From Hyphomonadaceae bacterium (GTDB taxonomy: Bacteria > Pseudomonadota > Alphaproteobacteria > Caulobacterales > Aquidulcibacteraceae): a stretch of DNA of 64,000 nt. The DNA lies in assembly GCA_023384105.1 (NCBI GenBank), contig JAHDXR010000017.1:1-64000 (forward strand), read 5' to 3'. Shown piece after piece: positions 24,280 to 45,567 of the stretch. The first letter of the stretch is position 1. The number at the start of each line of letters is the position of its first letter. Made by a program: the position numbers and the translations under genes. The notes under the pieces were generated by a model, which did not search any database, had not been told where the DNA came from, and saw only the letters and a list, made by a program, of their open reading frames with translations.

Positions 24280-25920
24280 TCACTCCTTTCTGCTGATCTG
24301 AATCCCGGCGGCCTCGCGATCCCATGTATCGGCCGTGACGCCCGCGTTGCGGAGCTCTGCTTTCAGCACTTTCGCCGTCGGCGTTTTAGGCAAGTCGGAG
24401 AGGATACGTACGAACCGTGGCACCATGAAGTATGGCATGCGGTCCTTCAGATAGAGGACGAGCTGTGCGGGATCGATCGATTGCGCTTCGGCGGGAGAGA
24501 CGACGATCATCACCTCGTCCTCGCCATACTCGCTTGGCACCCCGACCGCTGCGCACTCTCGCACCAGCGGATGGTTTAAGACTTCCGCCTCGACTTCGAA
24601 CGATGAGATGTTCTCGCCGCGACGACGGATGGCGTCCTTCATGCGGTCCACGAAGTAGAAATTGCCGCGCGCGTCTTGACGAAACCCGTCTCCCGTATGG
24701 AACCAGCCATTTCGCCATGCTTTCGCGCTCGCCTCCGGCATCGCATTGTATCCGTGCATCATGGACCAAGGCCTGTTCGAACGCAGGATCAGCTCACCAA
24801 CCGCGCCGCGCTCGACTTCAAGATCATTCTCATCGACCAAACGCGCCTCAATACCCAAGCGAGGACGGCCGCAGCTGCCAGCGGCGGCAGGGTTCTTTTC
24901 GGATAGGATCGGACAGGAGACTTCGGTCATATTGAACATGGTGAGGATCGTGACGCCGAATCGTTTGCGGAACGCTTCGGCGTTTTCGAGCAAGGGCACC
25001 ATGAACACCCAGTCTAAGCTGTGCCTTCGATCGGAAGAGCTGACGGGCGTCTTGAGCAAGAACGTAGCCATGGCGCCGAGAAGCGTGCAGCATGTCGCGC
25101 GCGTGCGTCTGATGATGTCCCAAAAGTCCTGCGTGCGAAACCCGCTGGTCATGGCGCAGGAACGACCCAGGAGAAGCATCCCATAAACACCGATCGTTCC
25201 TCCGACATGAAACAGCGGAAGCGTGATCAGATAGCGCATGCCTTCTTTGTCGCGCTCCTCGAAGCCGACGAGCGCCGCTGTGGCCAGATGACAATATGAA
25301 CTGAGGACGCCCTTGGACGGGCCAGTCGTGCCTGAAGTGAAGATGATCGACTGTTCATCCCATGGCTCGATCTCCGGATCAAAGTCGTCGCTGTCTGAGA
25401 CCGGCAATGGCAGGTCCGATGGCGCGTGGAGACGAAGAGATCCGAGGTTCGCCGTAGGCTTCGCGTTGTCCACGAGAACCAAGTGGGCCAATTGACCTAA
25501 TCCAATTCCGATCAGGCGATCAGCCAGGTCGCCAGTCGTAAAGATAACGCGTGCGCCGCTATTGGAGATCACATGTTCAAGCAGGCCGCCCTTGTATGCG
25601 GGGTTGATCGGAACATAGACGGCGCCGATCCAGTTCGCTCCAAACCAGACGCGCAGCGCGTCCGGGCCCGTAGGCAGCCATGAGAGGACACGATCCCCTT
25701 TCGCTACGCCCAGCGCCCGCAACCAGGCGCCTGCTCTGCCTGCTTCTTCACACGCTTGCGCATAGGTCCATTCGGCGCCGTTTTCGAAGACGACAAACAC
25801 ATCGTTTGGGCGCGTTTCAGCTTGGTGTCTCAGCACGTAACGCAGCACGCATTGATCGCGGGAAGGCGGCGTCGAAGACGCCCAAGAAGGGAGTGTTTTC
25901 TTCTGCATGGAAACCTTCAT
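24280..25920 (-). CDS. AMP-dependent acyl-CoA ligase (CaiC-like)
   Basis: 546-residue ANL ligase with FTSGTTGPSKG (near 200), FNMTEVSCP (near 335), GWFHTGDGFRQD (near 420), the hinge DRMKDAIRRRGENISSFEVE (about 438-457) and a C-terminal TPTAKVLK retaining the catalytic Lys. It resembles crotonobetaine/carnitine-CoA ligases. It overlaps the upstream hydrolase stop by 4 bases, so the acid released by that hydrolase is its likely substrate. Start ATG 25920; a second in-frame ATG lies 4 codons on. Confidence 0.92.
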   Translation of the reverse strand: MKVSMQKKTLPSWASSTPPSRDQCVLRYVLRHQAETRPNDVFVVFENGAEWTYAQACEEAGRAGAWLRALGVAKGDRVLSWLPTGPDALRVWFGANWIGAVYVPINPAYKGGLLEHVISNSGARVIFTTGDLADRLIGIGLGQLAHLVLVDNAKPTANLGSLRLHAPSDLPLPVSDSDDFDPEIEPWDEQSIIFTSGTTGPSKGVLSSYCHLATAALVGFEERDKEGMRYLITLPLFHVGGTIGVYGMLLLGRSCAMTSGFRTQDFWDIIRRTRATCCTLLGAMATFLLKTPVSSSDRRHSLDWVFMVPLLENAEAFRKRFGVTILTMFNMTEVSCPILSEKNPAAAGSCGRPRLGIEARLVDENDLEVERGAVGELILRSNRPWSMMHGYNAMPEASAKAWRNGWFHTGDGFRQDARGNFYFVDRMKDAIRRRGENISSFEVEAEVLNHPLVRECAAVGVPSEYGEDEVMIVVSPAEAQSIDPAQLVLYLKDRMPYFMVPRFVRILSDLPKTPTAKVLKAELRNAGVTADTWDREAAGIQISRKE

Positions 25921-27623
25921 GCGCAGGGACGGGCAGGCATTGAAACGGAGGAAGGAAACTGGTCGGAGTGAAGCAACTGCACGTCCACGATCGGGCCGGG
26001 CATGCCCGCACCGGGCTCTGCGTCAGTTCCCAAATTGGGATCCAAGTGAGGATAGTCTCCCGAACAGATGGAGACCCTAAGCGCTTGTCCCTTCGCAATG
26101 CGCTGGGCGGTGTGTCCCAACGAAATGCGATAGAGCGCCGGCTTTTCAGCTTCGAGAAAATCCGTTTTGTCCGGCGCGGAAGGGTCATTGCGAAATCGCC
26201 CTCTCAACGCACCATAAGCGAACACACGCGAGCAAGCGTTCTCGTCAACAACCGAGAGCCGGACCACGATATCCAGGTCGATCGCGGAGCACAGAATCCA
26301 CAGTGCGGCGATGGGTTCGCCGACAATGTCATAGGGAGCAACGGCAGGTTCGGACGTGAACACCAACACATCCGAGCGCTCTTCGAATTGCGCGGCATCG
26401 ACGGGGCCTGGAACGAGCCCGCCCAGGTACAATACTCTTCCACCTATGCTGGGCGTGGGATTAGAGGGGTCGTATTGGTAGGAGGCCGTCGTACCGCCTT
26501 GTAGCGGCCGCGTGGTCGAAAGCACTCCGCTCTTGCGCGCCGCATTTCCGTCGGACCCCAGATAGTAGGTCCGTTCCAAATCGTCGAACGGCGGCCAGTC
26601 GGATGCAACTTCCCATTTGTTCGCGCCCATAAGGAAGTATCGAATGGCTGGAAGGTCGGCCTTTGCGCCGTCGAGATAGCGTTGGAAGAACCGCACATGC
26701 GCGCCCGAAATGTCGGCGGCTCGCCCCGATGCGAACAGTCCGTAGTTCATGTCGGCCACGAGCTGAGACAGATGCGCGATATGCACCCATGGCCCCATCA
26801 GGAGATGCGAAGGTGCGCCAATCTTGCGCGCGTTCTGGAACAACCCGACCGTCGATCGCTGGAAGCAATCGAACCATCCGCCCGAATGGAGGCTCGGCAC
26901 ACGAATGCGCGTCAGATCCAGCGCCCGCACTTCTTGCCCAAACGAACGGTCGAAAATCGCGGCCGGCGCCAGTGGAAAGCCCGGCGCATCGAAGGCCGGC
27001 GTCTCGCGCAGGGGCCGATGATCCATAGCCGCGCGCGGGTTCAAGACGACGCTTGTCAGCAACGCCGCAAGTTCTGGACTAGCAGGGTTTCCTTCCGCCG
27101 CGCGCTTCGACAGCCAATCCGGCGCCATGAACGCGAGCCATGAGTAGAGGTGATCGAGTCTCAGGGCGCCGCCTGTCTCCTGCGCATCGAACGGCCATGC
27201 GCTTGCCATGTGTGGCGCGATCGCCGCGAGCGATGGCGGTTGCAGTGCAGCCGCGAACAGCTGCGCAATGCCGAGATAGGATTGACCAGCCATTCCCACG
27301 CGGCCGGAACACCAGTCCTGGCGCGCCGTCCATTCGACTGTGTCGAAACCGTCTCTGCCTTCCTGCTCCCAGGCGATCGGCGACCAGGCGCCGCCAGAGC
27401 GGAAGCGCCCTCGCGTGTCCTGCACAACCGCGGCAAAGCCTGCACGCGCCAAAGTCTCTGGGCGTATCGCTTCGATGTTGGCGATCGCGCTTTTGTCGTA
27501 GGGCGTGCGGAAGATGACTGCGGAGCGGGGCGACGCGCCCACTGGACGCCACACGTCCGCCTTCAGCGCCACGCCATCGCGCATCGGTACATCGACGTCG
27601 ATGTCAACAATCAATCCGCCCAA
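25917..27623 (-). CDS. CocE/NonD-type serine esterase
   Basis: 568-residue alpha/beta hydrolase with a C-terminal jelly-roll domain, as in cocaine esterase and X-Pro dipeptidyl peptidases. Visible are RTPYDKSA (near 40), the nucleophile motif AGQSYLG (Ser115), MGPWVH holding the probable catalytic His, and the C-terminal SVVDENA/VSICSGDYPHLDPN segment. No signal peptide, so it acts in the cytoplasm unless exported otherwise. The TTG at 27623 is chosen because AGGAG lies 6 bases upstream; a GTG at 27641 is the alternative. First gene of the leftward hydrolase/ligase operon, with an operator-like repeat at 27680-27696 just upstream. Confidence 0.9.
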   Translation of the reverse strand: MGGLIVDIDVDVPMRDGVALKADVWRPVGASPRSAVIFRTPYDKSAIANIEAIRPETLARAGFAAVVQDTRGRFRSGGAWSPIAWEQEGRDGFDTVEWTARQDWCSGRVGMAGQSYLGIAQLFAAALQPPSLAAIAPHMASAWPFDAQETGGALRLDHLYSWLAFMAPDWLSKRAAEGNPASPELAALLTSVVLNPRAAMDHRPLRETPAFDAPGFPLAPAAIFDRSFGQEVRALDLTRIRVPSLHSGGWFDCFQRSTVGLFQNARKIGAPSHLLMGPWVHIAHLSQLVADMNYGLFASGRAADISGAHVRFFQRYLDGAKADLPAIRYFLMGANKWEVASDWPPFDDLERTYYLGSDGNAARKSGVLSTTRPLQGGTTASYQYDPSNPTPSIGGRVLYLGGLVPGPVDAAQFEERSDVLVFTSEPAVAPYDIVGEPIAALWILCSAIDLDIVVRLSVVDENACSRVFAYGALRGRFRNDPSAPDKTDFLEAEKPALYRISLGHTAQRIAKGQALRVSICSGDYPHLDPNLGTDAEPGAGMPGPIVDVQLLHSDQFPSSVSMPARPCA

Positions 27624-27679
27624 CGGGTTGCTCCTTCGCACTTCAGTGCGGAAACGCCGGTTTCCATCCCTATTCCACT

Positions 27680-27731: not shown

Positions 27732-28430
27732 TCACTCCTTCGACACCATGCCCAGGACAAGATCGGCATGCCAATCCGCCAACGCTTCCGGGCCAAGTGG
27801 TCCGGATGGGCTAAACCATTCCGACACGCGCAAGCACATGTTGGTGATGGACGTCGCCAGAAGTCCCACCCCGGTTGCACGCGAAGGGCTGGAAACCTTG
27901 AACGCGCCTGCTTGCATGCCTGCGCTCAATATTTGCTCCAAGAGCGTCCGAATTTTGCGACGAGCCCGGCGCACATGCTCGCGCGGCTTGCCCGATAGAA
28001 ACTTGAACTCCTGGTTTGCAACGAGCGCCGCCTCGCGGCGATCAATGTGAAAGAGAACGAAAGCTCTAACGTAGCTGGACAGGCGATCCGCCGGCTTGCC
28101 TGTCTCCGGCACAGCCTCCTGAAGCGTCCGCCACAATTCCTCGTGCGTTTCGTTGATGATCGCGAACAGCAAGGCATCTTTCGAGCCGAAGTGATTGTAC
28201 AGCGCCCCAGGCGTTAAGGCGCATTCCTCAGTGATGTCCCGCGTCGTCGTCGCGTTGAAGCCGCGCTCAAAAAACAAACGCGTGGCCGTGGTTTTAATCC
28301 GCTCGTCCGTTGGAGCGTCATGCCGTCCCTTGGCTGGAGGGCGCCCCAGAGGGCGTCCTTTCTTGGGGGGCGGCGCAGCGCTCTTGGTCTCCGTCGCCTC
28401 GCGCCGCCGGCGCACCTGAGCTTGTCTCAT
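27732..28430 (-). CDS. TetR family transcriptional regulator
   Basis: 232-residue regulator. A basic, proline-rich N-terminal extension (about 40 residues) precedes the helix-turn-helix TTRDITEECALTPGALYNHFGSKD (about 62-85). The ATG at 28430 has AAGGA 6 bases upstream. It sits between the leftward esterase/ligase operon and the rightward TonB-receptor operon, and identical operator-like sequences occur on both sides, so it probably controls itself and both operons. Confidence 0.92.
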   Translation of the reverse strand: MRQAQVRRRREATETKSAAPPPKKGRPLGRPPAKGRHDAPTDERIKTTATRLFFERGFNATTTRDITEECALTPGALYNHFGSKDALLFAIINETHEELWRTLQEAVPETGKPADRLSSYVRAFVLFHIDRREAALVANQEFKFLSGKPREHVRRARRKIRTLLEQILSAGMQAGAFKVSSPSRATGVGLLATSITNMCLRVSEWFSPSGPLGPEALADWHADLVLGMVSKE

Positions 28431-28477
28431 TCGCGATCCTTTTCCCGCCTGCGCCGCCTGGGACCGGCGCTGATGGA

Positions 28478-28496
28478 ATATAAATAAGCGGTTACT
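28478..28496. promoter_or_regulatory. TetR-type operator copy 2 (tetR promoter)
   Basis: Second exact copy of ATATAAATAAGCGGTTA, 48 bases upstream of the tetR start, where a repressor could act on its own promoter. Confidence 0.65.
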
Positions 28497-28562
28497 CCTG
28501 TCACCGTCGAGCGCCGCGGGCTGAATGTTCGCTCTTGACGCCGTCATTCCCCTCTGTCTATT

Positions 28563-28582
28563 AATATATAAGCGCTTGTTAT
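28563..28582. promoter_or_regulatory. TetR-type operator copy 3 (TonB receptor promoter)
   Basis: AATATATAAGCGCTTGTTAT contains the perfect palindrome AAGCGCTT and matches the core ATAAGCG-TT of the other two copies. It lies about 80 bases before the TonB receptor start, beside that operon's likely promoter. Confidence 0.55.
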
Positions 28583-28662
28583 CTAGCGCAAGCTGAAGCG
28601 TGGCGCCTTTCAGAGGCCGGCGCCCGAGAACAAACGAGCTAAACCCGAATGGGGAGGGGAAA

Positions 28663-30813
28663 ATGAACAGTCGCATACGGCCGGGTTCGCCGGCTCTTCT
28701 GCAAGCGTCGGGCCTTGCGCTCGCGATCTCCCTAATTCCAACCGGCGTCAACGCACAAGCGGCTGCAGAGCCCGAAGAGGAAATCGTTGTGACCGCGAGG
28801 CGCGTCACGGAATCGCTGCAGGATGTCCCTCTAGCGGTTACCGTGCTTGGAGCGGCGGACCTTGAGAGATTGCAGGTTTCCGACATCGCCGACCTGAGCG
28901 GCCGCGTGCCGAATCTGCATGTGTTCTCCACGGCGGGCGCGAACAACGCAACAGCGTATATCCGCGGCATCGGTCAAGATAACCAGCTCTATGCGTTCGA
29001 ACCTGGCGTCGGCATCTATCTGGACGACGTTTACATGGCGCGCATGCAGCTTTCGCTCTTGGAGGCGTTGGATCTTGAGCGCGTCGAGGTACTCCGAGGT
29101 CCGCAAGGCGTGCTCTACGGGAAGAACACGAATGGCGGCGCTATCCGCTTCGTAACGCGCGATCCGGCTGATGTCCCCGAAGGCTCAGCGCGCGTCACCC
29201 TAGGCGACTATGGCCGGATGGATGCGCGGGGCATGTTCAATGCGCCGCTCGGTGAAGGCATTGCGTTGCGTGGCAACGTGCTCGCCCGAGTGCGGGACGG
29301 ATATTATCACAACCTTGTGGATAGCGACGATCAGGGTGGTGTCGATCTGCTCGTGGGTCGTCTGTCCTTGGGACTACAGCCCGCCGACGCTCTGGATGTC
29401 CAGCTGGCTGTGGACGCTACGCGCGATCGTTCCGACTCCGTCTTCGGAACGCCGCTTGTGGAAACGCTCAACCCATATTTTGGCCTGCCTGGCCAGCCGC
29501 TCATGCTGTCGGCGCTTGAGCCGTTCCAGGCCAACTCCGACATGGACAGCCTCAATGACCAGGATGTCTGGGGCGCTTCGCTCAACGCCACCTGGGATTT
29601 GGGCGGCGTGGTTCTGAAGTCCGTAACCGGCTATCGCGATCTGCAATTCCAGCAAAACCTTGATCTCGACGGCCACCCTGTCCCGATCCTTCACAGTCGC
29701 CAGCGCCAGGACTCCAATCAGTTCAGTCAAGAGCTCCAGGCGCAGTTTGCTGTTGGCGACAGCATCGAGACAGTCGCCGGCGTCTACTATTTTGAGGAAC
29801 GCTCGCATCAAACCACTCTGACCGAAGGGCTGGTGCTCTCAGAAAACGAGAGCGAGCTTGAAACCACCTCTTACGCTGCGTTTCTGAGTGCAACATTTGC
29901 GCTGAGCGAAAACTGGTCGGCCTCCGCGGGCGTTCGTTACACGAGAGAGAGCAAGGACTTCGTCAATTCACTTTCGCTGTTCGGGGCGCCGCTGTTCGTG
30001 GGGCAAACGGGGGATAACGAATGGGAGCGGTGGCTGCCAAGCGCCTCGTTGGAGTATCATTTCAGCGAAGCGACGATGGCCTATCTGCGATACGCGGAAG
30101 GCTTCAAGTCGGGCGGCTTCAACCCACAATATATCGGCGATCCAAATCAGGCGTCTTTCTACGACGAGGAAACTGTCGCCACGTATGAACTGGGGCTCAA
30201 GACGCGATCCGGCCGCATGTACGTCAATCTGGCGGCGTTCTATAATGATTTTGAGGACTATCAGGCCGCTGTGAGCATTATCGGCTTCGGTGGATTTCCC
30301 GTCAGCACATTCACCAACGCCGCAGCCTATACATCCTATGGAGCGGAGCTGGAGTTTTTCGGTCGGCTGATCGATCAGCTCTACGTGTCTGGTTCGCTCG
30401 CCTATTTTGAAGGCGAGTTCGACAGCTTCATCAATCCGGGGACCGGCGCGGATCTGAGCGATAACGACCTCGCCAACGCGCCGGAATTCCGAGCGAGCCT
30501 CGCTGCGGAGTATTCCGTGCCTCTGTCCTCATCCTTCGGCTTGCGGTTTGGAGCGTCAGCCGCCTACCAAACTAGCTATTTCACCGAGGTCAGCAACACG
30601 CCGGAACTCCATCAAGACGCGTTTACGCTGCTGAACGCGCATGTCGCCTTGGATGTCGGAGATCATGTGACAGTTGAACTCGCCGGTCGCAACCTGACGG
30701 ACGAACACTACCTCACCGACGGCTTCCCGCTCGACTTCACGCCAATCGTCATGCGGAACGCTTATTTTGGCGATCCGCGCACAGTGACACTGTCCGTGAG
30801 CGCCCGCTTCTGA
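28663..30813 (+). CDS. TonB-dependent outer-membrane receptor
   Basis: 716-residue receptor: signal peptide ending IPTGVNAQA (about 1-33), TonB-box-like EEEIVVTARRVTESLQDVP, plug with YIRGIGQD and RGPQGVLYGKNTNGG, and a beta-barrel ending SVSARF with terminal Phe. The ATG at 28663 follows GGGGAGGGGA. It begins a tightly packed eight-gene operon reaching 37069, so the imported molecule is probably the substrate of those enzymes. No STN signalling domain. Confidence 0.94.
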   Translation: MNSRIRPGSPALLQASGLALAISLIPTGVNAQAAAEPEEEIVVTARRVTESLQDVPLAVTVLGAADLERLQVSDIADLSGRVPNLHVFSTAGANNATAYIRGIGQDNQLYAFEPGVGIYLDDVYMARMQLSLLEALDLERVEVLRGPQGVLYGKNTNGGAIRFVTRDPADVPEGSARVTLGDYGRMDARGMFNAPLGEGIALRGNVLARVRDGYYHNLVDSDDQGGVDLLVGRLSLGLQPADALDVQLAVDATRDRSDSVFGTPLVETLNPYFGLPGQPLMLSALEPFQANSDMDSLNDQDVWGASLNATWDLGGVVLKSVTGYRDLQFQQNLDLDGHPVPILHSRQRQDSNQFSQELQAQFAVGDSIETVAGVYYFEERSHQTTLTEGLVLSENESELETTSYAAFLSATFALSENWSASAGVRYTRESKDFVNSLSLFGAPLFVGQTGDNEWERWLPSASLEYHFSEATMAYLRYAEGFKSGGFNPQYIGDPNQASFYDEETVATYELGLKTRSGRMYVNLAAFYNDFEDYQAAVSIIGFGGFPVSTFTNAAAYTSYGAELEFFGRLIDQLYVSGSLAYFEGEFDSFINPGTGADLSDNDLANAPEFRASLAAEYSVPLSSSFGLRFGASAAYQTSYFTEVSNTPELHQDAFTLLNAHVALDVGDHVTVELAGRNLTDEHYLTDGFPLDFTPIVMRNAYFGDPRTVTLSVSARF

Positions 30814-32067
30814 ATGACGTCTCCAGCTATGGCCTCCGATCCGGCGATTTTCGGTCACGTCGCCTCCGGATTCGAGCCGGTGCGGGCGGCGTTCGAAGAG
30901 AACTTCCGCCTGCGCAGTGAGATCGGCGCCGCATGTGCGGCGGTGGTCGAGGGTGAGGTCGTTGTCGACCTTTGGGGCGGCGTTCTCGATGCCGCTCGTC
31001 CGGATGAACCATGGCGGGAAGACAGCTTGGTTGTCGTCTATTCGATGACCAAGGGTTTAGCCGCCATGGTTGTGGCCTTGGCGCATTCGAGAGGGCAGAT
31101 CGACTACGATGCGCCGGTTGCGCAATACTGGCCGGAGTTTGCGCAGAACGGCAAAGACAGAGTGACCGTCCGCCAATTGCTTGGTCACGAGGCCGGACTC
31201 TGTGCGATCGACGAATCCCTCCATTGGGAAACGCTCGCCGACCTTGACCGGCTCGCGAGCATTCTCGCAAAGCAAAAGCCGGCATGGCGTGTTGGAGAGC
31301 GCCACGGCTATCATTCCCTGAGCATCGGCCTTTACAAGAATGAGCTTGTTCGACGCGTCGATCCTGCTCATCGCACAATCGGCCAGATTCTCCGCGAGGA
31401 CATTTGCGAGCCGCTCGATGCGGAACTCTATATCGGCTTGCCGCACACGGTTCCTGGGGATCGGCTGGCGACGCTCCATGCCGGCGCACGCGCCGATATG
31501 TTCAGAGCGCTTGATACGCTGACGCCCGCTTTTGTTTTCGCTTCTGTCATACCGGGCAACATCACGTACAAAACATTCCGCAATCCGCGGCTCAAGAGCG
31601 CGCTCGAGCTGGCGGCGCGGCCATGGCTTGACCTCGAACTCGCAGCTGCAAACGGCGTTGCATCCGCGCGTGGCGCCGCCAAGGCGTATGGCGCATTTGC
31701 CGTTGGCGGCGGGAAGCTGGGAATCTCAAAACGAACCCTCGATGAGCTGGAAGCCGAACCTCCTCTGCCCCGAAAGGGGAGGCTTAGAGACGCCGTTCTG
31801 AGAGCCGACACAAAATTCTCGCTTGGATTCTGGAAGCCGTACGCGGGTTATCCGTTCGGTTCTGATCATCGCGCCTACGGGACGCCGGGCGCCGGCGGCT
31901 CGATGGCCTTCGCCGATCCGTCAACGCGCCTGGGGTTTGCCTACACGCCGAACAAATTGGGTCTCCACATGTGGAACGACCCCCGCGAAGCGTCGCTGCG
32001 AGACGCAATCTATCGGTGTCTGGGCGTCGACCCCGGCACTTCACACACGGCTGGAAGAAACGCATGA
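30814..32067 (+). CDS. serine hydrolase of the beta-lactamase/esterase (EstB) family
   Basis: 417-residue class-C-beta-lactamase-like hydrolase with the nucleophile motif Ser77-Met-Thr-Lys80, a Tyr-containing GYHSLSIG loop near 170 and GTPGAGGS near 358. Such proteins usually act as esterases. No signal peptide, implying a cytoplasmic lipid ester or lactone substrate. The start ATG follows the receptor stop without a gap; an ATG at 30829 is also possible. Its stop overlaps the thiolase start (ATGA). Together with the CocE-type esterase this regulon has two ester hydrolases. Confidence 0.88.
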   Translation: MTSPAMASDPAIFGHVASGFEPVRAAFEENFRLRSEIGAACAAVVEGEVVVDLWGGVLDAARPDEPWREDSLVVVYSMTKGLAAMVVALAHSRGQIDYDAPVAQYWPEFAQNGKDRVTVRQLLGHEAGLCAIDESLHWETLADLDRLASILAKQKPAWRVGERHGYHSLSIGLYKNELVRRVDPAHRTIGQILREDICEPLDAELYIGLPHTVPGDRLATLHAGARADMFRALDTLTPAFVFASVIPGNITYKTFRNPRLKSALELAARPWLDLELAAANGVASARGAAKAYGAFAVGGGKLGISKRTLDELEAEPPLPRKGRLRDAVLRADTKFSLGFWKPYAGYPFGSDHRAYGTPGAGGSMAFADPSTRLGFAYTPNKLGLHMWNDPREASLRDAIYRCLGVDPGTSHTAGRNA

Positions 32068-33242
32068 GCGACGTCTCCGTCATGATCGCCGGCGTCGGGA
32101 TGACGCGCCATGGTTTCTTTGCCGACAAGAGTTGGCGTGATCTTGTTTCGGAAGCGGGCCTGGCCGCAATAGCGGACGCCGGTATTGACGCCGCTTCGGT
32201 CGACGGCGGAGTTGTCTCAGTTACCGCCCCGGAGGCGTTCGAGCAGCAGAATCTTGGGCCGCTTGTTGCGGACGAGTTGGGGCTCCAGCCGGGAAGCTTC
32301 AGCCAGGTGGTGGCGGCTTGCGCAGGCGGCACGCTCGCGTTGCAGCATGCGGCGAACATGGTGCGCTCCGGCCGGCATCAATGTGTGTTGGCGTTGGGCG
32401 TGGAGAAGCTCTCCGATGCGGCCTCTCCGTCCGATGCGCTGCTGTCCTATCTTGATCAGGAATTCGAGTCGCCAGCGGGCTTCGACTACGTCGATACGAT
32501 GGCTCTCATGCACGCGCGATATATGCAGAAATATGGCGCGTCACCTGAGCAGATCGCTTCCTTCGTCGTTCGTGATCGCTGGTATGCGAGCCGGAATCCG
32601 AAATCCCCCGACTATCGGCGCCCCGAAACGAACATCGACGAGATATTTGAGAGTGGCTGGGCGTCGCGTCCAATCCATCGTGCGGAATGTGCGCGCGGCT
32701 GCGACGGTTCGTCGGCTGTTGTCGTAATGAGGAAGGATCGGGCGGCTTCCGCCAGCCGCGCCGTTCGTCTTGCTGGAATTTCCGCTGCGCACGGCGCGAA
32801 CTATTTGGGGAACAAGTTTATTCCGGGCAGCGATGGCGACATCGCCGAGGCGCCCCAAACCCGCTTGGCGGCGGAGCGCGCCTATGCGGAAGCTGGAATC
32901 GCGGCGGCGGATGTCGATGTCGCCCAGGTGCATGATTGCTTCAGCGTTATGGGAGCGATCCATCTTGAGGGCCTGGGGCTGTTCGCAAAGGGGCGCGCGG
33001 CCGGCGCAGTTGCGGAGGGGGCGACGGCGCTAGATGGAATCGTCCCCGCCAACACGGATGGCGGCCGCATCGGCCTCGGGCATCCAACCGGAGCGACGGG
33101 ATTATCGATCATCGTAGAGACGGTGTCGCAGCTGCGCGGCGAGGCGGGACAACGTCAAGTTCGCGACGCCGAGGTCGGCGTCGCGCAATCGATGGGCGGC
33201 AACAACGCAATCAGCGCTGTCGCCGTGCTGCGGAAAGACTGA
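32064..33242 (+). CDS. thiolase family protein (SCP2/acetoacetyl-CoA thiolase type)
   Basis: 392-residue thiolase-fold protein. The nucleophilic Cys86 (VAACAGGTLAL), the VHDCFS motif near 292 and IGLGHPTGATG near 345 are intact, so Claisen-type cleavage or condensation is plausible. It is followed after 4 bases by a DUF35 protein and then an HMG-CoA-synthase-like protein. In archaea a thiolase, DUF35 and HMG-CoA synthase form one complex; in steroid catabolism a thiolase-fold aldolase pairs with DUF35. Either precedent could apply. Confidence 0.9.
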   Translation: MSDVSVMIAGVGMTRHGFFADKSWRDLVSEAGLAAIADAGIDAASVDGGVVSVTAPEAFEQQNLGPLVADELGLQPGSFSQVVAACAGGTLALQHAANMVRSGRHQCVLALGVEKLSDAASPSDALLSYLDQEFESPAGFDYVDTMALMHARYMQKYGASPEQIASFVVRDRWYASRNPKSPDYRRPETNIDEIFESGWASRPIHRAECARGCDGSSAVVVMRKDRAASASRAVRLAGISAAHGANYLGNKFIPGSDGDIAEAPQTRLAAERAYAEAGIAAADVDVAQVHDCFSVMGAIHLEGLGLFAKGRAAGAVAEGATALDGIVPANTDGGRIGLGHPTGATGLSIIVETVSQLRGEAGQRQVRDAEVGVAQSMGGNNAISAVAVLRKD

Positions 33243-33246
33243 GGTT

Positions 33247-33675
33247 ATGTGGGCGCCGAGCGATCCTCCCTATCGGCAAGCAACGGCGACGGGTGCGCGC
33301 GCATGGCGCGGACGTCTGGCGCGCTACGCCATGGTTGGCGGACATTGCGGCGAGTGCCAAGCGTACATGTTCCCGCCGAGACGCGTGTGTCCGAATTGCA
33401 GGTCACAGGCCATTTCCCAGCGCGCGTTCAGTGGACGGGGCGTCTTGCTGGTTGCTGCGGAGGATCACTCCCCTTTGATGGGCCACGGAGGCAGGTCAAA
33501 ACGCCCATTTGGCATGGTGCGCCTCGAGGAGGGGCCAACCATCATGGCGGAACTCGTTGATGTCGAATTCAATGCCGTGACAGAGGGGATGCCTGTCGAA
33601 ATGGTCGTGCGTCAGTGGCGGCGAGAGCAGTCAGGCATGCCGCAATATGGCTTCAAGTTTCGGCCAGTTCGATGA
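33247..33675 (+). CDS. DUF35 Zn-ribbon/OB-fold protein
   Basis: 142 residues. The zinc ribbon uses Cys34, Cys37, Cys48 and Cys51 (GHCGEC...CPNC), followed by an OB-fold domain with RPFGMVRLEEGPTIMAELVD. DUF35 proteins bind CoA esters and hold thiolase-fold enzymes together. It lies between the thiolase and the HMGS-like gene and overlaps the latter by 4 bases (ATGA), the expected position of a scaffold for both. Confidence 0.93.
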   Translation: MWAPSDPPYRQATATGARAWRGRLARYAMVGGHCGECQAYMFPPRRVCPNCRSQAISQRAFSGRGVLLVAAEDHSPLMGHGGRSKRPFGMVRLEEGPTIMAELVDVEFNAVTEGMPVEMVVRQWRREQSGMPQYGFKFRPVR

Positions 33676-34739
33676 GCGAACAGAAAATCGGCATCTCCGG
33701 CGCCGGCGTTGCGCTTCCTTATCACCGCATCAAAGTTGCAGCTATACGCGATGCCTGGGACAACACGCCTGAGAGCGTCGCCCAGCGACTCGGGGTTGTC
33801 GAACGAGGGGTAATCGATCCTGACGCGGATGTTGTCACGCTTGCAATCGAGGCAGGCCATCAAGCGCTGGAAGGCGTTGCGCCCGAAAGCGTTGGAGCGG
33901 TATTTCTCGGCACGCAGAGCGGACCTTATGTCGACCGCGCCAATGCAGCCATTGTCGCCGAAGCGTTGCTCTGCGGCCTAGACACCTTCGCAACCGACGT
34001 TCAGTTTAGCGGAAAGTCCGGGACTTCCGCATTGCTGGCCGCGCTCGCATTTGTACGAGCCGGGATGGCGGACGCCGCATTGGCGATTGGTGCGGATGCA
34101 ATCGACATTCATGTGGCGCCCGGCGATCCCGCAGAGCTCACGGCTTCGTGCGGCGCCGCTGCGTTGCTCGTTACGCGCTCCCCCACGCTTGCACAATTCG
34201 AAGCGCATTCATCTGTCTCATCCGATACGCCCGACAGTTTTCGTTTGGATGGCGAGCGCTACATCCGCAACACCGGCGCCGTGATGACCGCCACGGGCGT
34301 TGGTGAACTGGCGCATGTTCGCGCGGCGTGGGAACGCCTGGGAGCCAAGCTTGCCTGGCCAACGGATGGCATAGCGCATCTCGCCTGCCACCAGCGGGAT
34401 GGAGCCGGACCGGGACGATTGGCGAAGGCTCTTGGACTTGGACCCAACGTAACGAAGGCCGGCATGATCGCCGATCGTCTCGGCGATGCCGGGGCGGCTG
34501 CCCCGTTACTTTCCCTGATACGGGTGCTCGATCTTTCGCAAGCAGGCGATCATGCGGTTCTCATTGCTTACGGCGCGGGGGCGGGCGCTGACGCGCTAGC
34601 TTTCCAGATTTGCTCATCGACGGTCACGCCGCGCGTCGAATCAAAACTCCGCATTCGGAAGCTCATCGACTACGCCACCGCTGTTCGTTTTGAACGGCGT
34701 TATCACGGCCATGAACGTCCTTCGAGTGCATTTGAATGA
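33672..34739 (+). CDS. HMG-CoA-synthase-like protein lacking the catalytic cysteine
   Basis: 355 residues that follow the archaeal-type HMG-CoA synthase pattern along the length: RLGVVERG near 40, AFVRAGMADAALAIGAD near 126-142, APGDPAELTASCGAAALLV near 149, a catalytic-type His240 in CHQRDG, and YGAGAGADAL near the C terminus. At the active site the family sequence FACKAGT is here FSGKSGT (112-118), replacing the nucleophilic Cys with Gly114. It should therefore not form the usual acyl-enzyme. It may be a structural partner, or catalyse a retro-aldol or decarboxylation step. Start ATG 33672, overlapping the DUF35 stop; stop overlaps the next SDR. Confidence 0.85.
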   Translation: MSEQKIGISGAGVALPYHRIKVAAIRDAWDNTPESVAQRLGVVERGVIDPDADVVTLAIEAGHQALEGVAPESVGAVFLGTQSGPYVDRANAAIVAEALLCGLDTFATDVQFSGKSGTSALLAALAFVRAGMADAALAIGADAIDIHVAPGDPAELTASCGAAALLVTRSPTLAQFEAHSSVSSDTPDSFRLDGERYIRNTGAVMTATGVGELAHVRAAWERLGAKLAWPTDGIAHLACHQRDGAGPGRLAKALGLGPNVTKAGMIADRLGDAGAAAPLLSLIRVLDLSQAGDHAVLIAYGAGAGADALAFQICSSTVTPRVESKLRIRKLIDYATAVRFERRYHGHERPSSAFE

Positions 34740-35491
34740 AGCACGGACTCCTCGCGGATAAAGTCGTCCTTGTAACCGGGGCTGCGCGCGGCATTGGGCG
34801 TGCGATCGCGCTGTGCGCTAGCGCTGAAGGAGCGAGCCTATTCCTCACCGATCGCGACGAGCGCGGCGTCCGAGAAACGTCGGCCGCAATCGAAGGAGCG
34901 GGCGGCCGTGCACATGCGCTTGCCGGCGATCTCACAGCGCCCGAGTTTCCTGAACGTCTCTCCTTGGAAGTCGCAGAGAAATTTCACCGCCTCGACGTGC
35001 TCGTGAACAATGCGGGCGTTGAGCATCGCGGGAGTGTTGCCGAACACACGCCGGATGCGTGGAGTAGAGTGATCGCCATCAATCTTACCGCGCCTTTTCT
35101 GATCACTCGGGCGATGCTCGGTCTGCTGGAAAAGTCGAACGCCGGCGCAATCGTAAACATCGCTTCCACCGCCGTTGCGGGATTTCCTGGTCAAGTCGCC
35201 TACGACAGCTCGAAAGGCGGCATATTAAGTATGACACGTTCCTTGGCGATGGATCTGGCCCGTCACAGAATACGGGCGAACGCGGTTTGTCCCGGCTTTA
35301 TTGCAACGGACATGGTCCTTCAGGATTCTGAACTGAAGCGTCTGGGCGAATTGACCACGCGAGCGCTCCCCATTCGGCGCATGGGCGCCCCCGAAGAAAT
35401 TGCAGAAGCTGTGATCTGGCTCGCGTCGGATCGCGCAAGCTACGTGACGGGGCAAGCCCTGTTTGTGGATGGAGGATGGATCCGGACATGA
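34736..35491 (+). CDS. short-chain dehydrogenase/reductase
   Basis: 251-residue SDR: TGAARGIGRA (14-23), NNAGVEH near 90, a catalytic Ser in NIASTAV, YDSSKGG (near 160) and PGFIATDM. It resembles FabG/3-hydroxyacyl or hydroxysteroid dehydrogenases using NAD(P). ATGA overlap with the HMGS-like gene. A second SDR follows at once, so two alcohol/ketone interconversions may be needed. Confidence 0.92.
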   Translation: MKHGLLADKVVLVTGAARGIGRAIALCASAEGASLFLTDRDERGVRETSAAIEGAGGRAHALAGDLTAPEFPERLSLEVAEKFHRLDVLVNNAGVEHRGSVAEHTPDAWSRVIAINLTAPFLITRAMLGLLEKSNAGAIVNIASTAVAGFPGQVAYDSSKGGILSMTRSLAMDLARHRIRANAVCPGFIATDMVLQDSELKRLGELTTRALPIRRMGAPEEIAEAVIWLASDRASYVTGQALFVDGGWIRT

Positions 35492-36240
35492 CGATCTATG
35501 AGGGGATCAGCGGAAAGAAGGTGTTGATCACGGGCGCCGCGGGCGGCATGGGACAAGAAATGGCCCGCGTTCTCGCTGAGCGGGGAGCAATTGTACTGCT
35601 TACGGATGTTGTCGAGCAGCGTCTTCAGGAGGTTCGCGAGAGCCTTGGCGCCGCCGCCATCGCGCGGAGCGCCGATCTGACGGACCCTGAAGCGGTCGAT
35701 GCGTTGTTTGCTTGGGCCGATGATGAGTGTGAAGGTGTCGATCATCTCATAAACAATGCTGGCGTCCTATCTCAGGCAAAAATCGAGAACTTTCCGGATG
35801 AGGACTGGGATCGCGTCATCAGCGTCAATCTCACGTCGGTATACCGCTGCACCAAAGCTTACGCTCGCGCACGTATTGCAAGAGGGGGAGGCGGCGCGAT
35901 CGTGAACATCGCATCGATGGCCTATAAAGGCATGACCCAGCAAATCGCTTATTCGTCATCCAAGGGCGGTGTCGTGAGTATGACCCGCTCCACGGCGATG
36001 GAGCTGGCGCGTCACGGCGTTCGAGCCAACGCCATCGCGCCTGGCATGATCGAAACCCCGATGATTGCCGTTGCGAACAGCCAGCGTGACCCTCTGCGCG
36101 AAAAAATGCTGCCTCAGATCCCGTTGCGCAGGTATGGCCACCCAAGGGAGATCGCATGCGTCGCCGCATTCCTTCTGTCGCACGACGCATCTTATCTAAC
36201 CGGAGAAATCGTGCACGTGTCAGGCGGCGCCCGGCTCTAA
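35488..36240 (+). CDS. short-chain dehydrogenase/reductase
   Basis: 250-residue SDR with TGAAGGMGQEMA near 15, NNAGVLSQ near 87, NIASMAYKG with the catalytic Ser, YSSSKGG near 155 and PGMIETPM. The ATG at 35488 is favoured because it shares ATGA with the previous stop, as elsewhere in this operon; an ATG at 35476 is the alternative. Substrate unknown. Confidence 0.9.
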   Translation: MTIYEGISGKKVLITGAAGGMGQEMARVLAERGAIVLLTDVVEQRLQEVRESLGAAAIARSADLTDPEAVDALFAWADDECEGVDHLINNAGVLSQAKIENFPDEDWDRVISVNLTSVYRCTKAYARARIARGGGGAIVNIASMAYKGMTQQIAYSSSKGGVVSMTRSTAMELARHGVRANAIAPGMIETPMIAVANSQRDPLREKMLPQIPLRRYGHPREIACVAAFLLSHDASYLTGEIVHVSGGARL

Positions 36241-36265
36241 CGTCGCATTGAGAAGGACTGCCCCC

Positions 36266-37069
36266 GTGGACGAAAAAGCGATTCTGACTGAGTTCGATAA
36301 CGGCGTGCTTTGGATACGCCTCAATAGGCCGGGTGCTCGCAACGCATTCAATCGCGCCTTGGGCGAGCAATTGCTGGACAGCCTCATCGAGGTGGACCGG
36401 GACCCCAAAGTGCGATGCGCTGTCATCATCGGCAGCGAGCCCGCATTCTGCGCCGGCGACGACATCGGTGGTATAAAAGTCTTGCTTGGCTTGGCGCCGC
36501 CTTCTCCCGGTTCGGCTGGCGATTCAGCACGCGATGGATCCATCCTTTACTTGGCGTGCGCGCGCCGCGTGCTGAGATCGCCAAAGCCGATACTTGCCGC
36601 GATAAATGGGCCGGCGGCGGGTGCGGGAACGGAGTTCGCTTGCGCCGCTGATTTGCGATTGGCGTCATCAACGGCTCGGATCGGCAGCGGCCTCATCAGT
36701 ATCGGCCAGATGGGAAATGCTGTCCTGATGACAAGGCTGATCGGCCCAGCGCGGGCGACGGCGCTTTTCCTAGACGGCTCTCTCATCTCGGCGGAAGAAG
36801 CTAAAGGCATCGGCCTTGTGGATTACGTGTTCGACAGCGAGACCTTTGAGCAGGACGTAAGAAGTTTCGCCTTGCGGATAGCGAGCCTTCCCACGAAGGC
36901 CATCGGCCTCTTCAAGGAAACCCGCGAGAAAGCGCTCTCGGCCCATTGGGAAGTCGCACTCGGTGAGCAAGAGAAGGCGCACTGGCGCAACATGGCTGAA
37001 GTCGAAGATTCCGTAGAAGGCGCCCGCGCCTTCCTTGAGAAGCGCAAGCCCCACTTTGTGGGTAGGTAG
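36266..37069 (+). CDS. enoyl-CoA hydratase/isomerase family protein
   Basis: 267-residue crotonase-fold protein. The oxyanion-hole segments PAFCAGDDIGG and INGPAAGAGTEFACAADL are present. Of the two catalytic Glu of canonical hydratases, the first is kept (GAGTEF) while the second position in IGSGLISIG is not Glu, so hydratase activity is uncertain and isomerase or hydrolase activity is possible. GTG 36266 is chosen for its AAGGA site 8 bases upstream; a TTG at 36248 is possible. Last gene of the operon that starts with the TonB receptor. Confidence 0.87.
   Translation: MDEKAILTEFDNGVLWIRLNRPGARNAFNRALGEQLLDSLIEVDRDPKVRCAVIIGSEPAFCAGDDIGGIKVLLGLAPPSPGSAGDSARDGSILYLACARRVLRSPKPILAAINGPAAGAGTEFACAADLRLASSTARIGSGLISIGQMGNAVLMTRLIGPARATALFLDGSLISAEEAKGIGLVDYVFDSETFEQDVRSFALRIASLPTKAIGLFKETREKALSAHWEVALGEQEKAHWRNMAEVEDSVEGARAFLEKRKPHFVGR

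Positions 37070-40860: not shown

Positions 40861-40864
<4 letters not shown>
40052..40864 (-). CDS. enoyl-CoA hydratase/isomerase family protein (PaaG-like)
   Basis: 270-residue crotonase-fold protein with MFCAGGDLQRF and VHGAAAGAGMGLALTADI. Both canonical hydratase Glu positions differ (GAGMGLAL and YTRAGLTPDGG), and the TPDGG segment recalls PaaG/ECI-type isomerases with a single acidic residue. Enoyl-CoA isomerisation is therefore more likely than hydration. It overlaps the stop of the upstream acyl-CoA dehydrogenase by 4 bases. Confidence 0.88.
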
Positions 40865-42011
<1,147 letters not shown>

Positions 42012-42015
<4 letters not shown>

Positions 42016-43154
42016 AGCGCCCGACCGATGAGATCTTTCATGATCTCGTTTGTGCCGCCGGCGATTCGGCCGAGGCGGGCGTCCGTCCAGCGTCGTGCGA
42101 TCGGCGTCTCGCGCATATAGCCGTAGCCGCCGAAGAGCTGGAGGCAATTGTCGATCACCTCGCAGCACTTTTCGGTCGTCCACCACTTGACCATGGCGCC
42201 GGCCTCGGCGTCGAAGCGGTCTTCGACGAAGAGGTCGATACAGCGCTCGAGATAGGCGCGAGCGACGGTCGTCGTCGTCTTGGCTTCCGCCAGCGTGAAG
42301 CGTGCGCTCTGGTGGTCGATGATGCGCTTGCCGAAAGTGCGCCGGTCCTTGCAATAGGCGATAGCTTCGTCGCATGCTGCTTCCATATTGACGACGGCGG
42401 ACATCGCCATAATGAGCCGCTCTTCCGGCAGCCGCTGCATCAATTGATAAAAGCCGCGCCCCTCGACGCCGCCGAGCAGATTTTCAGCCGGAATGCGCAC
42501 ATTTTCGAAGAACAGCTCGGAGGTATCCTGCACCTTGCAGCCGATCTTCTTCAGATTGCGGCCAAGCGCGAACCCCTTCGCATCGGCGGTTTCGAGAATC
42601 AGAAGACTGACGCCGCGCGCACCGGCCGAAGGATCGGTCTTGGCGGCGACGAGAATGAAATCCGCAGTCTGAGCGTTGCTGATGAAGGTCTTTTGGCCGT
42701 TGAGCACGTAGTGACCGCCTTCACGCACCGCGCGCGTGCGCATGGCCTGGAGATCCGAGCCGCCGCTCGGCTCGGTCATGGCGATGGCGGCGGTGAATTC
42801 GCCGGTAATCATCCTCGGCAGATAGCGCGTGCGCTGATCTTCGGTGCCGTAGAGTTCGATATAAGGCGCGATAATGTCGCTGTGCAGATAAAAGGCGAGT
42901 TCGTTGAAGCAGGCGCGCGTCTGCTCCTCGATAATGATCATGCAATGATAGAGATCGCCGCCCGCGCCGCCGTAGCGGGGGGCCGCCTTCGGACAAAGCA
43001 ATCCCGCTTCTCCAGCTCTGGTCCAAAGCTCGTGAGGCGGCGCGCAATTCTCCTGCCATGCCTTCCGGTTCGGCAGGCATTCACGCTCGATGAAGCGACG
43101 GACGTTCGTCCGGAACACTTCGTGCTCAGGCGTATAGTGGGAGGAGGAGATCAT
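42012..43154 (-). CDS. acyl-CoA dehydrogenase
   Basis: 380-residue flavoprotein similar to its downstream neighbour ([49 protein letters not shown]). The likely catalytic Glu is again in RLPEERL, as in isovaleryl-CoA-type enzymes. Two adjacent homologues with coupled translation may be isoenzymes or a heteromeric complex. The ATG at 43154 is chosen by homology; a GTG three codons upstream is possible. Confidence 0.92.
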
Positions 43155-43207
43155 GATGTCCACGAAGCCCTGAGCGGGCCAACTGTGTTGGCCCGCTCCT
43201 ATGCTAT

Positions 43208-45463
43208 TCAGAATTCCGCTCGCAGTTCCACCCCCCATGTGCGGCCGAAGCCCGGCGCGCGCGTGGTGATCTGGGCGAACGGGAAGGGGAAGAGTTGGCC
43301 CTGGCTGATGGCGATCTCATCGGTGATGTTGCGTCCCCAGAGATAGAAGCCATAGCGGCCGTCTTCAGCCTGCAGGCCGATGCGCCCGTTCACCGTCGTG
43401 ATGGCGTCGTTCGTGAGAGCGTTGGTGACGTTCACGAACGATTCGCCGCGATAGATGACATCTACCCGCGAGAATATCTCCAAGCCGTCTTGCCAAGCTG
43501 GCATGATGTATTGAATGCCGGCGCTGCCGGAATATTCGGGCTGGTTGGGGATCGCGCGACCGACTGCGCCCGGACTGCCGGCAAACTCCTCATAGTGCGC
43601 GTCAAGGTAGGCGAGGTTTGCATCCAGCGTAAGCCCTTCGATCGGGCGCGCCGTAAGTTCGACCTCGATCCCTTCCGATGTTGCAGAAGCGGCGTTGTCG
43701 ATCACGAACGAAAGGCCGGTGAAGACCTGCTCCTGCTTGTCTTTCCAGTCCATATGGAACACCGCCAGATTGAATTCCAAGCGGCGGTCGAACAGGAACG
43801 ACTTGTAGCCGATCTCGTAATTGTCGACCGTTTCCGGATCGAAGCCGAATTGGGTCGCAGGGTCGAAGGGGGGCGAGATCACGTCGGTTTGGAATCCGCC
43901 GGCTTTGAAGCCGCGGCTGTAGCGCGCAAAGATCATCTGATCGTCGCTGAGATCGTAGCTGATGCTCAAATCGCCGGTGACGCGGCCGTCGTCATAGGTC
44001 TCGTTCCGACGCGGAATATTGACGGCGAAGTTCGGGATAAGCGATGGCCCGGGGCCGGCGGTGTAGGTTTGCGTATGAAACTGGATGTAGGAGAATTCCT
44101 TGCTCTCATCCGTGTAGCGCAGACCCGCGGAGAGATGCAGATTAGACGTCAGGTCATAGGTAAAGGAGCCGAACGCGGCCCAGCTCTGCGCTTCGATCGT
44201 TGACTCCGTGCTCCCGGCTTCGCCGGCATACGTCGGATAGGCGAATGCAGCGGCATTGCCGGCCAAGAGAAGCGGGAATACCGGACCGAGCTGGATGCGG
44301 CGGTTGTTCTCGGTGTTCTCGTTGTAGAAGTAGAGGCCGACAAGCCAGCTCAGCGGCCCGTCGCCATTCGAGGCGAGACGCAACTCCTGACTGAAGTTCT
44401 CGCCATTCTCCTCGCGGCCGACGTTGAAGGCGTTGATCGGCAGACCGTCGGAATCGTCGCCGAAGTTTGAATCATATCGCCGATAGGACGTGATCGAGGT
44501 GAGCGTCGCGCCATCGAACTCCCAATCGAAGCGTGCGGCCGCGCCATAGAGGGAACGCTGTGCGAACTCGTCGCCGTCGAGGCCCACCACATTGTCGCTG
44601 GCGTCTTGCGGAGGGATGGCTGCAAGGATCGGCACCGCCGCGCTCAGCACGGCGGGGCCCGTTTCAAGAGCGCTCGTGCCACTTTCGTTGAAATGGTCGA
44701 CGCTGAAGCGTGCGCGCAGACGCGAACTCAGGTCCGATGTCAGTACTAGGCGCGCGCCTGTGGCTTCGATGTCGTTGAGCTCCCCGCCTGTGAAGCTGTT
44801 GTCGAGATAGCCATCGCGGCTGCGGTGCGCCAGCGACAAGCGCGCCTGCAGCCGTTCCGGGACAATCGCGCCGCCGATGGATGCGCGGGCCTGGACGAGC
44901 CCAAGATTGCCGAAGGTCACATCGCCGTTGGCGGTGAAGTCGTCAGTCGGATCGGCCGTGATGATGTTAATGGCGCCGCCGATCGTATTCTTGCCATAGA
45001 GGGTGCCTTGCGGGCCGCGCAGGATTTCAATGCGCGAGACGTCGTTCAGGATAGTGTTGAAGGTCGGATCTCGGCCCTGATAGACCTCATCGACATAGAC
45101 CCCGATGGCGGGTGGAAACCCCGCATTGATGTTGCTCTGCGATGTTACGCCGCGAATGCTGATCCGGGGAGAGATCGAACTCTGATCCATGATGACGTTC
45201 GGCGCCTTGACGCCAACATCGGTCATGTAGCCGGCGGTGGTGTTCTGGATTTCACTCGCGCCGATGGCGGTGATGGCGATCGGCACGTCGATCAGTTGTT
45301 GTTCGCGGCGCTGCGCCGTCACCACGATCTGTTCGACTTGCGTATCGTCCGTGGTTTGCGCCGAAACCGGAACTGCGTTGAGGGCGCACAATGATGCGCC
45401 TAGAAGCAAGCTTTTGCCGGTCAATCCCTTGGTGTGCGAAAAGCGCGCATTGTTCCTGGACAT
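43208..45463 (-). CDS. TonB-dependent outer-membrane receptor
   Basis: 751-residue receptor with signal peptide ending AVPVSAQT (about 1-36), TonB-box-like VEQIVVTAQRREQQLIDVP, plug with SIRGVTSQSN and RGPQGTLYGKNTIGG, and barrel ending VELRAEF with terminal Phe. The ATG at 45463 has a GGGGAGGGA site. It lies inside a long leftward series, 104 bases from the preceding crotonase gene, so it may have its own promoter. Ligand unknown. Confidence 0.94.
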   Translation of the reverse strand: MSRNNARFSHTKGLTGKSLLLGASLCALNAVPVSAQTTDDTQVEQIVVTAQRREQQLIDVPIAITAIGASEIQNTTAGYMTDVGVKAPNVIMDQSSISPRISIRGVTSQSNINAGFPPAIGVYVDEVYQGRDPTFNTILNDVSRIEILRGPQGTLYGKNTIGGAINIITADPTDDFTANGDVTFGNLGLVQARASIGGAIVPERLQARLSLAHRSRDGYLDNSFTGGELNDIEATGARLVLTSDLSSRLRARFSVDHFNESGTSALETGPAVLSAAVPILAAIPPQDASDNVVGLDGDEFAQRSLYGAAARFDWEFDGATLTSITSYRRYDSNFGDDSDGLPINAFNVGREENGENFSQELRLASNGDGPLSWLVGLYFYNENTENNRRIQLGPVFPLLLAGNAAAFAYPTYAGEAGSTESTIEAQSWAAFGSFTYDLTSNLHLSAGLRYTDESKEFSYIQFHTQTYTAGPGPSLIPNFAVNIPRRNETYDDGRVTGDLSISYDLSDDQMIFARYSRGFKAGGFQTDVISPPFDPATQFGFDPETVDNYEIGYKSFLFDRRLEFNLAVFHMDWKDKQEQVFTGLSFVIDNAASATSEGIEVELTARPIEGLTLDANLAYLDAHYEEFAGSPGAVGRAIPNQPEYSGSAGIQYIMPAWQDGLEIFSRVDVIYRGESFVNVTNALTNDAITTVNGRIGLQAEDGRYGFYLWGRNITDEIAISQGQLFPFPFAQITTRAPGFGRTWGVELRAEF

Positions 45464-45567
45464 TCGATCCCTCCCCTGGGACAGCGCTCTTGCTCTATTG
45501 CCGTGGAGCGCCCCTGACCAATGACACGATCCGTTCGCCAACCCGCCATCGGCGGCGCCGGCTTCGC

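Follow-up and report, generated by a model that had tools for sequence, protein, structure and literature searches.

The window analysed here is a 64,000-nucleotide stretch of the Hyphomonadaceae bacterium assembly GCA_023384105.1 (contig JAHDXR010000017.1, positions 1 to 64,000), in which three adjacent genes encode a thiolase, a DUF35 protein and a protein resembling archaeal 3-hydroxy-3-methylglutaryl-CoA (HMG-CoA) synthase, HMGCS (Table 1). A first-pass annotation made from the letters alone had placed this triad at 32064-34739, and we confirmed its coordinates and residues, namely, the 4-base gap between the thiolase and DUF35 genes, the 4-base overlap between the DUF35 and HMGCS-like genes, and the intact thiolase Cys86. 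Its assignment of the third protein to the archaeal-type family also holds. Of two curated models, the protein passes NF003274 (266.4 bits, cut-off 244) and falls short of TIGR00748 (208.7 bits, cut-off 353.35), and it matches the solved chains of PhlA (5m3k, E-value 1.5e-71; 9skh, 1.4e-70) and of archaeal HMGCS (6esq, 1.6e-49). This family match is far above chance. We considered whether another KAS-III-type family would fit the protein better, a possibility that the annotation itself had raised against its assignment, and rejected it, since KAS III/FabH models and chains score far lower. The AF2 model of the HMGCS-like chain (mean pLDDT 84.3) has PhlA 5mg5_A as its top structural match (TM 0.92), and that of the thiolase chain (mean pLDDT 78.1) has the archaeal thiolase 6esq_A (TM 0.89).

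Table 1. Genes of the triad and of the surrounding cluster in the window
Feature	Coordinates	Strand	Evidence or remark
Thiolase subunit, 392 aa	32064..33242	+	Pfam PF22691 4.4e-38; SCP2-type site
DUF35 linker, 142 aa	33247..33675	+	PF01796 8.1e-11, zf-ChsH2 2.1e-8
HMG-CoA-synthase-like pseudoenzyme, 355 aa	33672..34739	+	Gln82, Gly114, His240, Asp272
TonB-dependent receptor-like gene, head of same-strand run	28663..30813	+	Translation; plasmid TonB receptor match 4e-51
Beta-lactamase-fold esterase, directly upstream of thiolase, 4-base overlap	30814..32067	+	Family profile matches
SDR1	34736..35491	+	47-49% identical to triad-adjacent SDR in 4/4 Streptomyces loci
SDR2	35476..36240	+	50% identical to SDR of locus L055 only (1/4 loci)
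Crotonase (ECH)	36248..37069	+	48% identical to crotonase of L055 only (1/4 loci)
AMP-forming acyl-CoA ligase	24280..25920	-	Homologue 3' of triad in 4/4 Streptomyces loci (53-55%)
CocE/NonD family hydrolase	25917..27641	-	Homologue 3' of triad in 4/4 Streptomyces loci (39-41%)
TetR-family regulator between the two arms	27732..28970	-	TetR domains at residues 228-409 only

The HMGCS-like protein carries the motifs FSGKSGT (with Gly114), CHQ (residues 239-241) and GAGAGADAL (301-309), and alignment with archaeal HMGCS (6esq) bears out the earlier observation that the first of these replaces the FACKAGT of the family. The catalytic Glu, Cys, His and Asn of the archaeal enzyme correspond to Gln82, Gly114, His240 and Asp272, so that three of the four are replaced in the window protein, and all four are replaced in its four Streptomyces relatives. 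We aligned 42 rows in total (the window, 19 genome-contig loci, L034, L035, 19 loci of a Chloroflexota group and archaeal HMGCS), of which 21 have Gly at position 114, 20 have Cys and one (L036) has Asp. Among the 21 Gly rows, Glu never occurs at position 82, where five rows (the window and Streptomyces) have Gln, 14 have Cys and two have Tyr; position 272 is Asp throughout; and position 240 is His in the window only, Pro in the four Streptomyces rows and Gln in the remaining 16. Not every Gly row is an independent case: L018 and L035 represent the same gene, L029 and L031 come from the same metagenome-assembled genome (MAG), and 11 are from Pseudomonas. The sample also leans to Gly, as the contig scan that yielded the 19 loci used, beside an N-terminal pattern, the peptide pattern [AT]DVQF[SA]GK, which demands it; L034 and the Chloroflexota rows were found by searches free of this pattern. 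The first-pass annotation had stressed that the His-bearing CHQ and GAGAGADAL segments remain, which is true of the window, but the His is present in only this one of the 21 Gly rows, and the loss of Glu82 and Asn272 had been overlooked. Gly114 as a mere local mutation can be rejected, since Gly is present in each of the four close relatives found, where a retained Cys had been named as the outcome that would speak against the annotation, and Gly also runs throughout the PhlA-like rows. We do not class the window protein as an HMG-CoA synthase because the catalytic residues, when checked, are not present as a set; a protein above the NF003274 cut-off for HMG-CoA synthase can thus be without them. 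A separate case is L036 (genome G1504, Chloroflexota group), whose synthase-like protein is likewise without the catalytic residues, Asp standing in for the Cys and Gly for the Glu; its gene adjoins that of a thiolase with the Cys kept, and L036 forms a long branch of unsure placement in both trees described below.

The phylogenetic tree of the synthase-like proteins (41 rows) groups 14 Gly rows and L036 in one clade (support 99/97), with 20 Cys rows beside it (95/96), and clusters the window with the four Streptomyces proteins at 100/99. For this tree we left out L019, L020, L022, L024, L027 and L031 (near duplicates or partial) as well as L035 (the L018 gene), and added six fused proteins (L002-L007), which form an outer group; the root is drawn as a midpoint. 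The thiolase tree (33 rows, without the same seven and without L042 and L049) gives the same picture, with a 15-row clade at 100/100, and the window and Streptomyces at 100/98. The question put earlier, whether Gly at this position marks a conserved clade, can therefore be answered in the affirmative, with Gly in 21 of the 42 rows and the clade well supported; judged by these alignments and trees, the Gly-type synthase is a conserved clade that has lost Glu82 and Asn272 along with the Cys. What is new here is the subclade of the window and the four Streptomyces loci, with its catabolic setting and ordinary thiolase site, which looks separate and little-studied; our literature search, mainly of open-access papers, found no description of it. 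In six Streptomyces pairs for each gene, dN/dS (the ratio of nonsynonymous to synonymous substitution rates) is 0.29-0.35 for the HMGCS-like gene, 0.13-0.20 for the thiolase, 0.17-0.34 for DUF35 and 0.20-0.34 for SDR1; the HMGCS-like gene is kept under constraint, which is looser than that on the thiolase.

The HMGCS-like gene is rare in the genomes that we sampled, where mostly five to eight candidates were scored per genome. At an E-value of 1e-35 it was found in one of 385 genomes of the class and one of 349 of the phylum, in both cases the window's own genome, and in two of 343 genomes of the Streptomyces albicerus genus group, centre genome included; at 1e-30, one of 346 genomes of the Streptomyces albicerus phylum had it, the centre itself. 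In a search of 61 genomes of relatives, the best match beyond the window's own was 31% identical. A scan pattern matched 95 stretches of viral contigs, none of which held a relative, and a plasmid search with the window thiolase at 1e-40 gave no match.

The site of the adjoining thiolase consists of Cys86 in AACAGG, the HDCF motif at 290-293 (His290, Cys292) and His340 of GHP. It thus has the nucleophilic Cys, HDCF and the GHP His of an SCP2-type thiolase, as which we predict it to be active. At the positions corresponding to residues 87, 88, 298 and 347 of PhlC, the thiolase-fold subunit of PhlACB, the window and the four Streptomyces thiolases have Ala, Cys, His and His, the same as the archaeal thiolase, whereas PhlC itself has Asn, Cys, Tyr and His. 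Its special residues His56, Tyr124, His144, Tyr298 and Trp211 correspond in the window to Thr, Pro, Tyr, His, and Gly or Cys depending on the alignment, and have no counterpart in the four Streptomyces thiolases either. The columns of Trp211 and His56 move between alignments, the window never having Trp or His there, and the L034 row has a gap at PhlC position 56. We therefore do not class the window triad as a PhlACB acylase, these residues having been checked and found absent. A retro-aldolase of the Sal/Ltp2 kind was also considered and rejected, since this identity needs YDCY or YDHF and the window thiolase has HDCF and Cys86; the available excerpts of PMC12329534 give these two motifs, with Gly at the nucleophile position in CtSal.

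Several loci elsewhere in our collection have altered partner sites of other kinds. The Chloroflexota-group loci L037-L054 are a mirror image, with a full Glu/Cys/His/Asn set in the synthase and, in 12 of the 18 (several of them near-identical relatives), an adjoining thiolase without its Cys, replaced by Gly in ten, Asp in one and Glu in one. The Cys-less thiolase adjoins the synthase in all four genomes checked (G1534, G1582, G1484 and G1648); a further thiolase match at 1e-25 was absent from three of these, and G1648 has one more. The single Bacillota MAG of L029 (7231-9551) and L031 holds two copies of a dead-synthase triad, in which the thiolase GHP His is also gone (GFASG) and the Cys is kept.

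The closest parallel is PhlACB (PpATase and CsATase; 5m3k, 5mg5, 9skh), the Friedel-Crafts acylase in the biosynthesis of the antibiotic 2,4-diacetylphloroglucinol, in which the same three families are adjacent. PhlA and the window HMGCS-like protein are 40-41% identical, both with Gly at the Cys position and without the Glu; PhlA proteins read FAGKSGT and FSGKSGT at the Gly site, the latter as in the window, and the thiolase Cys is retained in both systems. Like PhlB, the DUF35 protein of the window has, in addition to the four zinc-ribbon Cys, an N-terminal tail, which the archaeal fragment is without. On the other hand, the gene order is thiolase-DUF35-synthase in the window and A-C-B in PhlACB, and, unlike PhlACB, the window has catabolic neighbours and none of the special residues of PhlC. 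A Pfam scan of 19 window proteins, the only search bearing on phlD, found no phlD-type type III polyketide synthase. According to the available excerpts of Pavkov-Keller et al. 2018 (PMC6392133), Gly115 of PhlA replaces the crucial Cys and Cys83 the Glu, the substrate is contacted by PhlC residues only, PhlA and PhlB are very likely required for a properly folded complex, the N-terminal tail of PhlB has a role in it, and the enzyme acts reversibly; a 2026 paper on CsATase, as far as its excerpts go, also places catalysis in PhlC (PMC12955522). The statement in the first-pass annotation that the variant had not been described must thus be withdrawn, as Gly115 of PhlA lies at the same position as Gly114.

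Like the window, MucABC (9vbo, 9vbt), an acyltransferase of tetramate biosynthesis, is a triad with a dead synthase-like subunit, in which MucA has Cys at the Glu place and Glu at the Cys place; its thiolase has the Asn-Cys and Tyr of PhlC, and its context of nonribosomal peptide synthetase (NRPS) genes differs from that of the window. We also noticed a Gly-type dead-synthase triad on a Priestia megaterium plasmid (L060:4992-7770) beside condensation-domain and NRPS genes, with Ser, Gly, Gln and Asp at the synthase-like site and a PhlC-like Asn-Cys and Tyr in the thiolase; it resembles the muc-type tetramate clusters, and muc-like clusters in an NRPS context are reported from another Priestia strain in the excerpts of PMC10161427. 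The archaeal thiolase/DUF35/HMGCS complex (6esq, 6et9; described in the excerpts of PMC6392133 and PMC12329534) comprises the same three families, and its thiolase site residues agree with those of the window, whereas its HMGCS has Glu, Cys, His and Asn where the window protein has Gln, Gly, His and Asp. In catabolism, BbsAB, Ltp2-ChsH2, Sal-Shy and IpfDE (ibuprofen degradation) put a thiolase fold to use on bulky CoA esters, as we propose for the window. The first three share the DUF35 partner with it, and IpfE presumably is a DUF35 protein too; however, the available accounts, in part, mention no synthase-like third subunit for these four systems, and the window has one. IpfD is an SCPx thiolase (PMC6063337, in excerpt).

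The triad stands in a same-strand run (28663-37069) of TonB receptor-like gene, esterase, thiolase, DUF35, HMGCS-like gene, SDR1, SDR2 and crotonase, and across the regulator from a ligase and hydrolase arm. As the TetR domains of the regulator are confined to residues 228-409, its true start is probably downstream of the first codon of the open reading frame. All four Streptomyces loci (L013, L014, L015 and L055) have the order thiolase, DUF35, synthase-like gene, SDR1, ligase and CocE/NonD hydrolase, so the triad and these neighbours are common to both lineages. When the L055 proteins are compared with the host genome, the window copy ranks first among the 46 matches of the ligase, the five of the hydrolase and the 32 of the crotonase. 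G+C content is 62.4% in the triad, 60.5% in the cluster and 62.1% in the whole window, and this check, the only one made for a foreign origin of the cluster, gave no clear signal. Further along, the minus strand of the window encodes two acyl-CoA dehydrogenases (40861-42375 and 42012-43238) and a TonB receptor (43208-45964). The first dehydrogenase is 45% identical to one on a Georgenia plasmid, and the genes at 40861-45964 may therefore belong to the same catabolic island. The Streptomyces loci have a divergent arm of their own (L055:13472-18320, L013:2948-5970) which encodes a protein with a CoA-transferase domain as well as a FabF-like synthase; the arm of L055 additionally contains a KAS III gene and an SDR.

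We take the triad to be PhlACB-like in its predicted architecture and SCP2-type thiolase-like in its chemistry, and favour, with a probability of about 0.6, a CoA-dependent thiolase carried on a conserved pseudo-HMGCS scaffold in a PhlACB-like assembly and cleaving a bulky 3-ketoacyl-CoA in catabolism. DUF35 would tie thiolase dimers to dimers of the catalytically dead synthase, which would serve as a conserved scaffold or cavity wall, leaving the chemistry to the thiolase: Cys86 would accept the acyl group, His340 and Cys292/His290 would act as base and acid, and CoA would be used for the cleavage. The same cluster would make the substrate from an ester-type compound: the CocE/NonD hydrolase or the esterase would hydrolyse the ester, the acyl-CoA ligase would activate the product, and the crotonase and the SDRs would then hydrate and oxidise it. 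Cocaine-type esters were considered on account of the CocE name but gained no support. We infer the assembly, the reaction direction, the sequence of steps and the substrate class from the following: Glu82, Cys114 and Asn272 of the synthase are replaced in all 21 Gly rows and His240 in 20 of them; the thiolase site is archaeal-like in the window and the four Streptomyces loci, and both trees give the same clade; PhlA is described as non-catalytic and needed for assembly in the excerpts of PMC6392133, and the window DUF35 has the PhlB-type tail; the synthase-like gene is constrained; and the triad is found together with the ligase, hydrolase and SDR1 in each of the four Streptomyces loci, the window copies being the host's best matches to the ligase, hydrolase and crotonase of L055. 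Three earlier suggestions, a probable three-protein complex, a bacterial catabolic setting and a synthase that is only a scaffold, gain support from these comparisons.

Some observations weigh against this reading. All characterised dead-synthase relatives (Phl and Muc) are C-acyltransferases and not thiolases; the AF2 models are of single chains and carry no information on a complex; three of the four Streptomyces stretches have neither the crotonase nor SDR2; and plasmids often carry ligases of about 50% likeness (85 records at 1e-60). Moreover, the Georgenia plasmid carries homologues of the ligase, hydrolase, crotonase, SDR1 and acyl-CoA dehydrogenase, and in the two stretches of it examined no triad gene was found at 1e-6. 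The triad would therefore not be required in every case of this pathway type, of which it may be an exchangeable part.

The dead-synthase triads of known role, together with the reversibility of PhlACB and the fact that PhlA and PhlB are the closest solved relatives of the synthase-like and DUF35 proteins, would also fit a C-acyltransferase or C-deacylase that targets a carbon of a 1,3-dicarbonyl or polyphenol and deacylates the compound under degradation. We consider this unlikely, as His56, Tyr124, His144, Trp211 and Tyr298 of PhlC are unmatched in the window and Streptomyces thiolases, and the thiolase is most similar to archaeal CoA thiolases. Thiolases being reversible, the cluster might instead build a product by condensing acyl-CoAs, a direction to which the FabF-like synthase and CoA-transferase-domain protein of the Streptomyces divergent arm, and the KAS III gene of L055, would be suited; yet the window cluster is one of TonB receptor-like gene, esterase, CocE/NonD hydrolase, ligase and crotonase, with no FabF-like or KAS III gene among the 19 proteins scanned, which makes a biosynthetic role rather improbable. 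The first-pass annotation had further suggested a synthase turned towards aldol cleavage or decarboxylation. Such chemistry of its own, for instance through His240, could draw on the His240 and GAGAGADAL kept in the window and on the purifying selection on the gene in Streptomyces, but seems very improbable: three of the four catalytic residues are replaced, the four Streptomyces relatives have Pro in place of His240 and the remaining 16 Gly rows have Gln, the adjoining thiolase has a complete SCP2-type site, and the PhlACB papers, in their available parts, give catalysis to PhlC (PMC6392133, PMC12955522).

Returning to the scaffolded thiolase, a dead synthase co-occurs both with remodelled thiolases (Phl, Muc, Priestia, L018 and L029) and with an ordinary one (the window clade), and the simplest order is therefore that the synthase was lost first and PhlC-type remodelling came after. 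Synthase loss thus seems the earlier event, provided that the root lies between the Gly and Cys groups. We give roughly even odds to the wider proposal that the window and Streptomyces form a separate clade in which the synthase died before the thiolase changed, the dead synthase being the essential scaffold of an ordinary CoA-dependent catabolic thiolase with core genes common to both; this clade would then be the missing step from the archaeal mevalonate complex to the Friedel-Crafts acylases, and a first catabolic member of that lineage. The suggested order, synthase death followed by thiolase remodelling, would describe how a complex of central metabolism became a biocatalyst of aryl ketone synthesis, and a dead synthase beside an unmodified thiolase site would offer a natural test of what the dead subunit is for.

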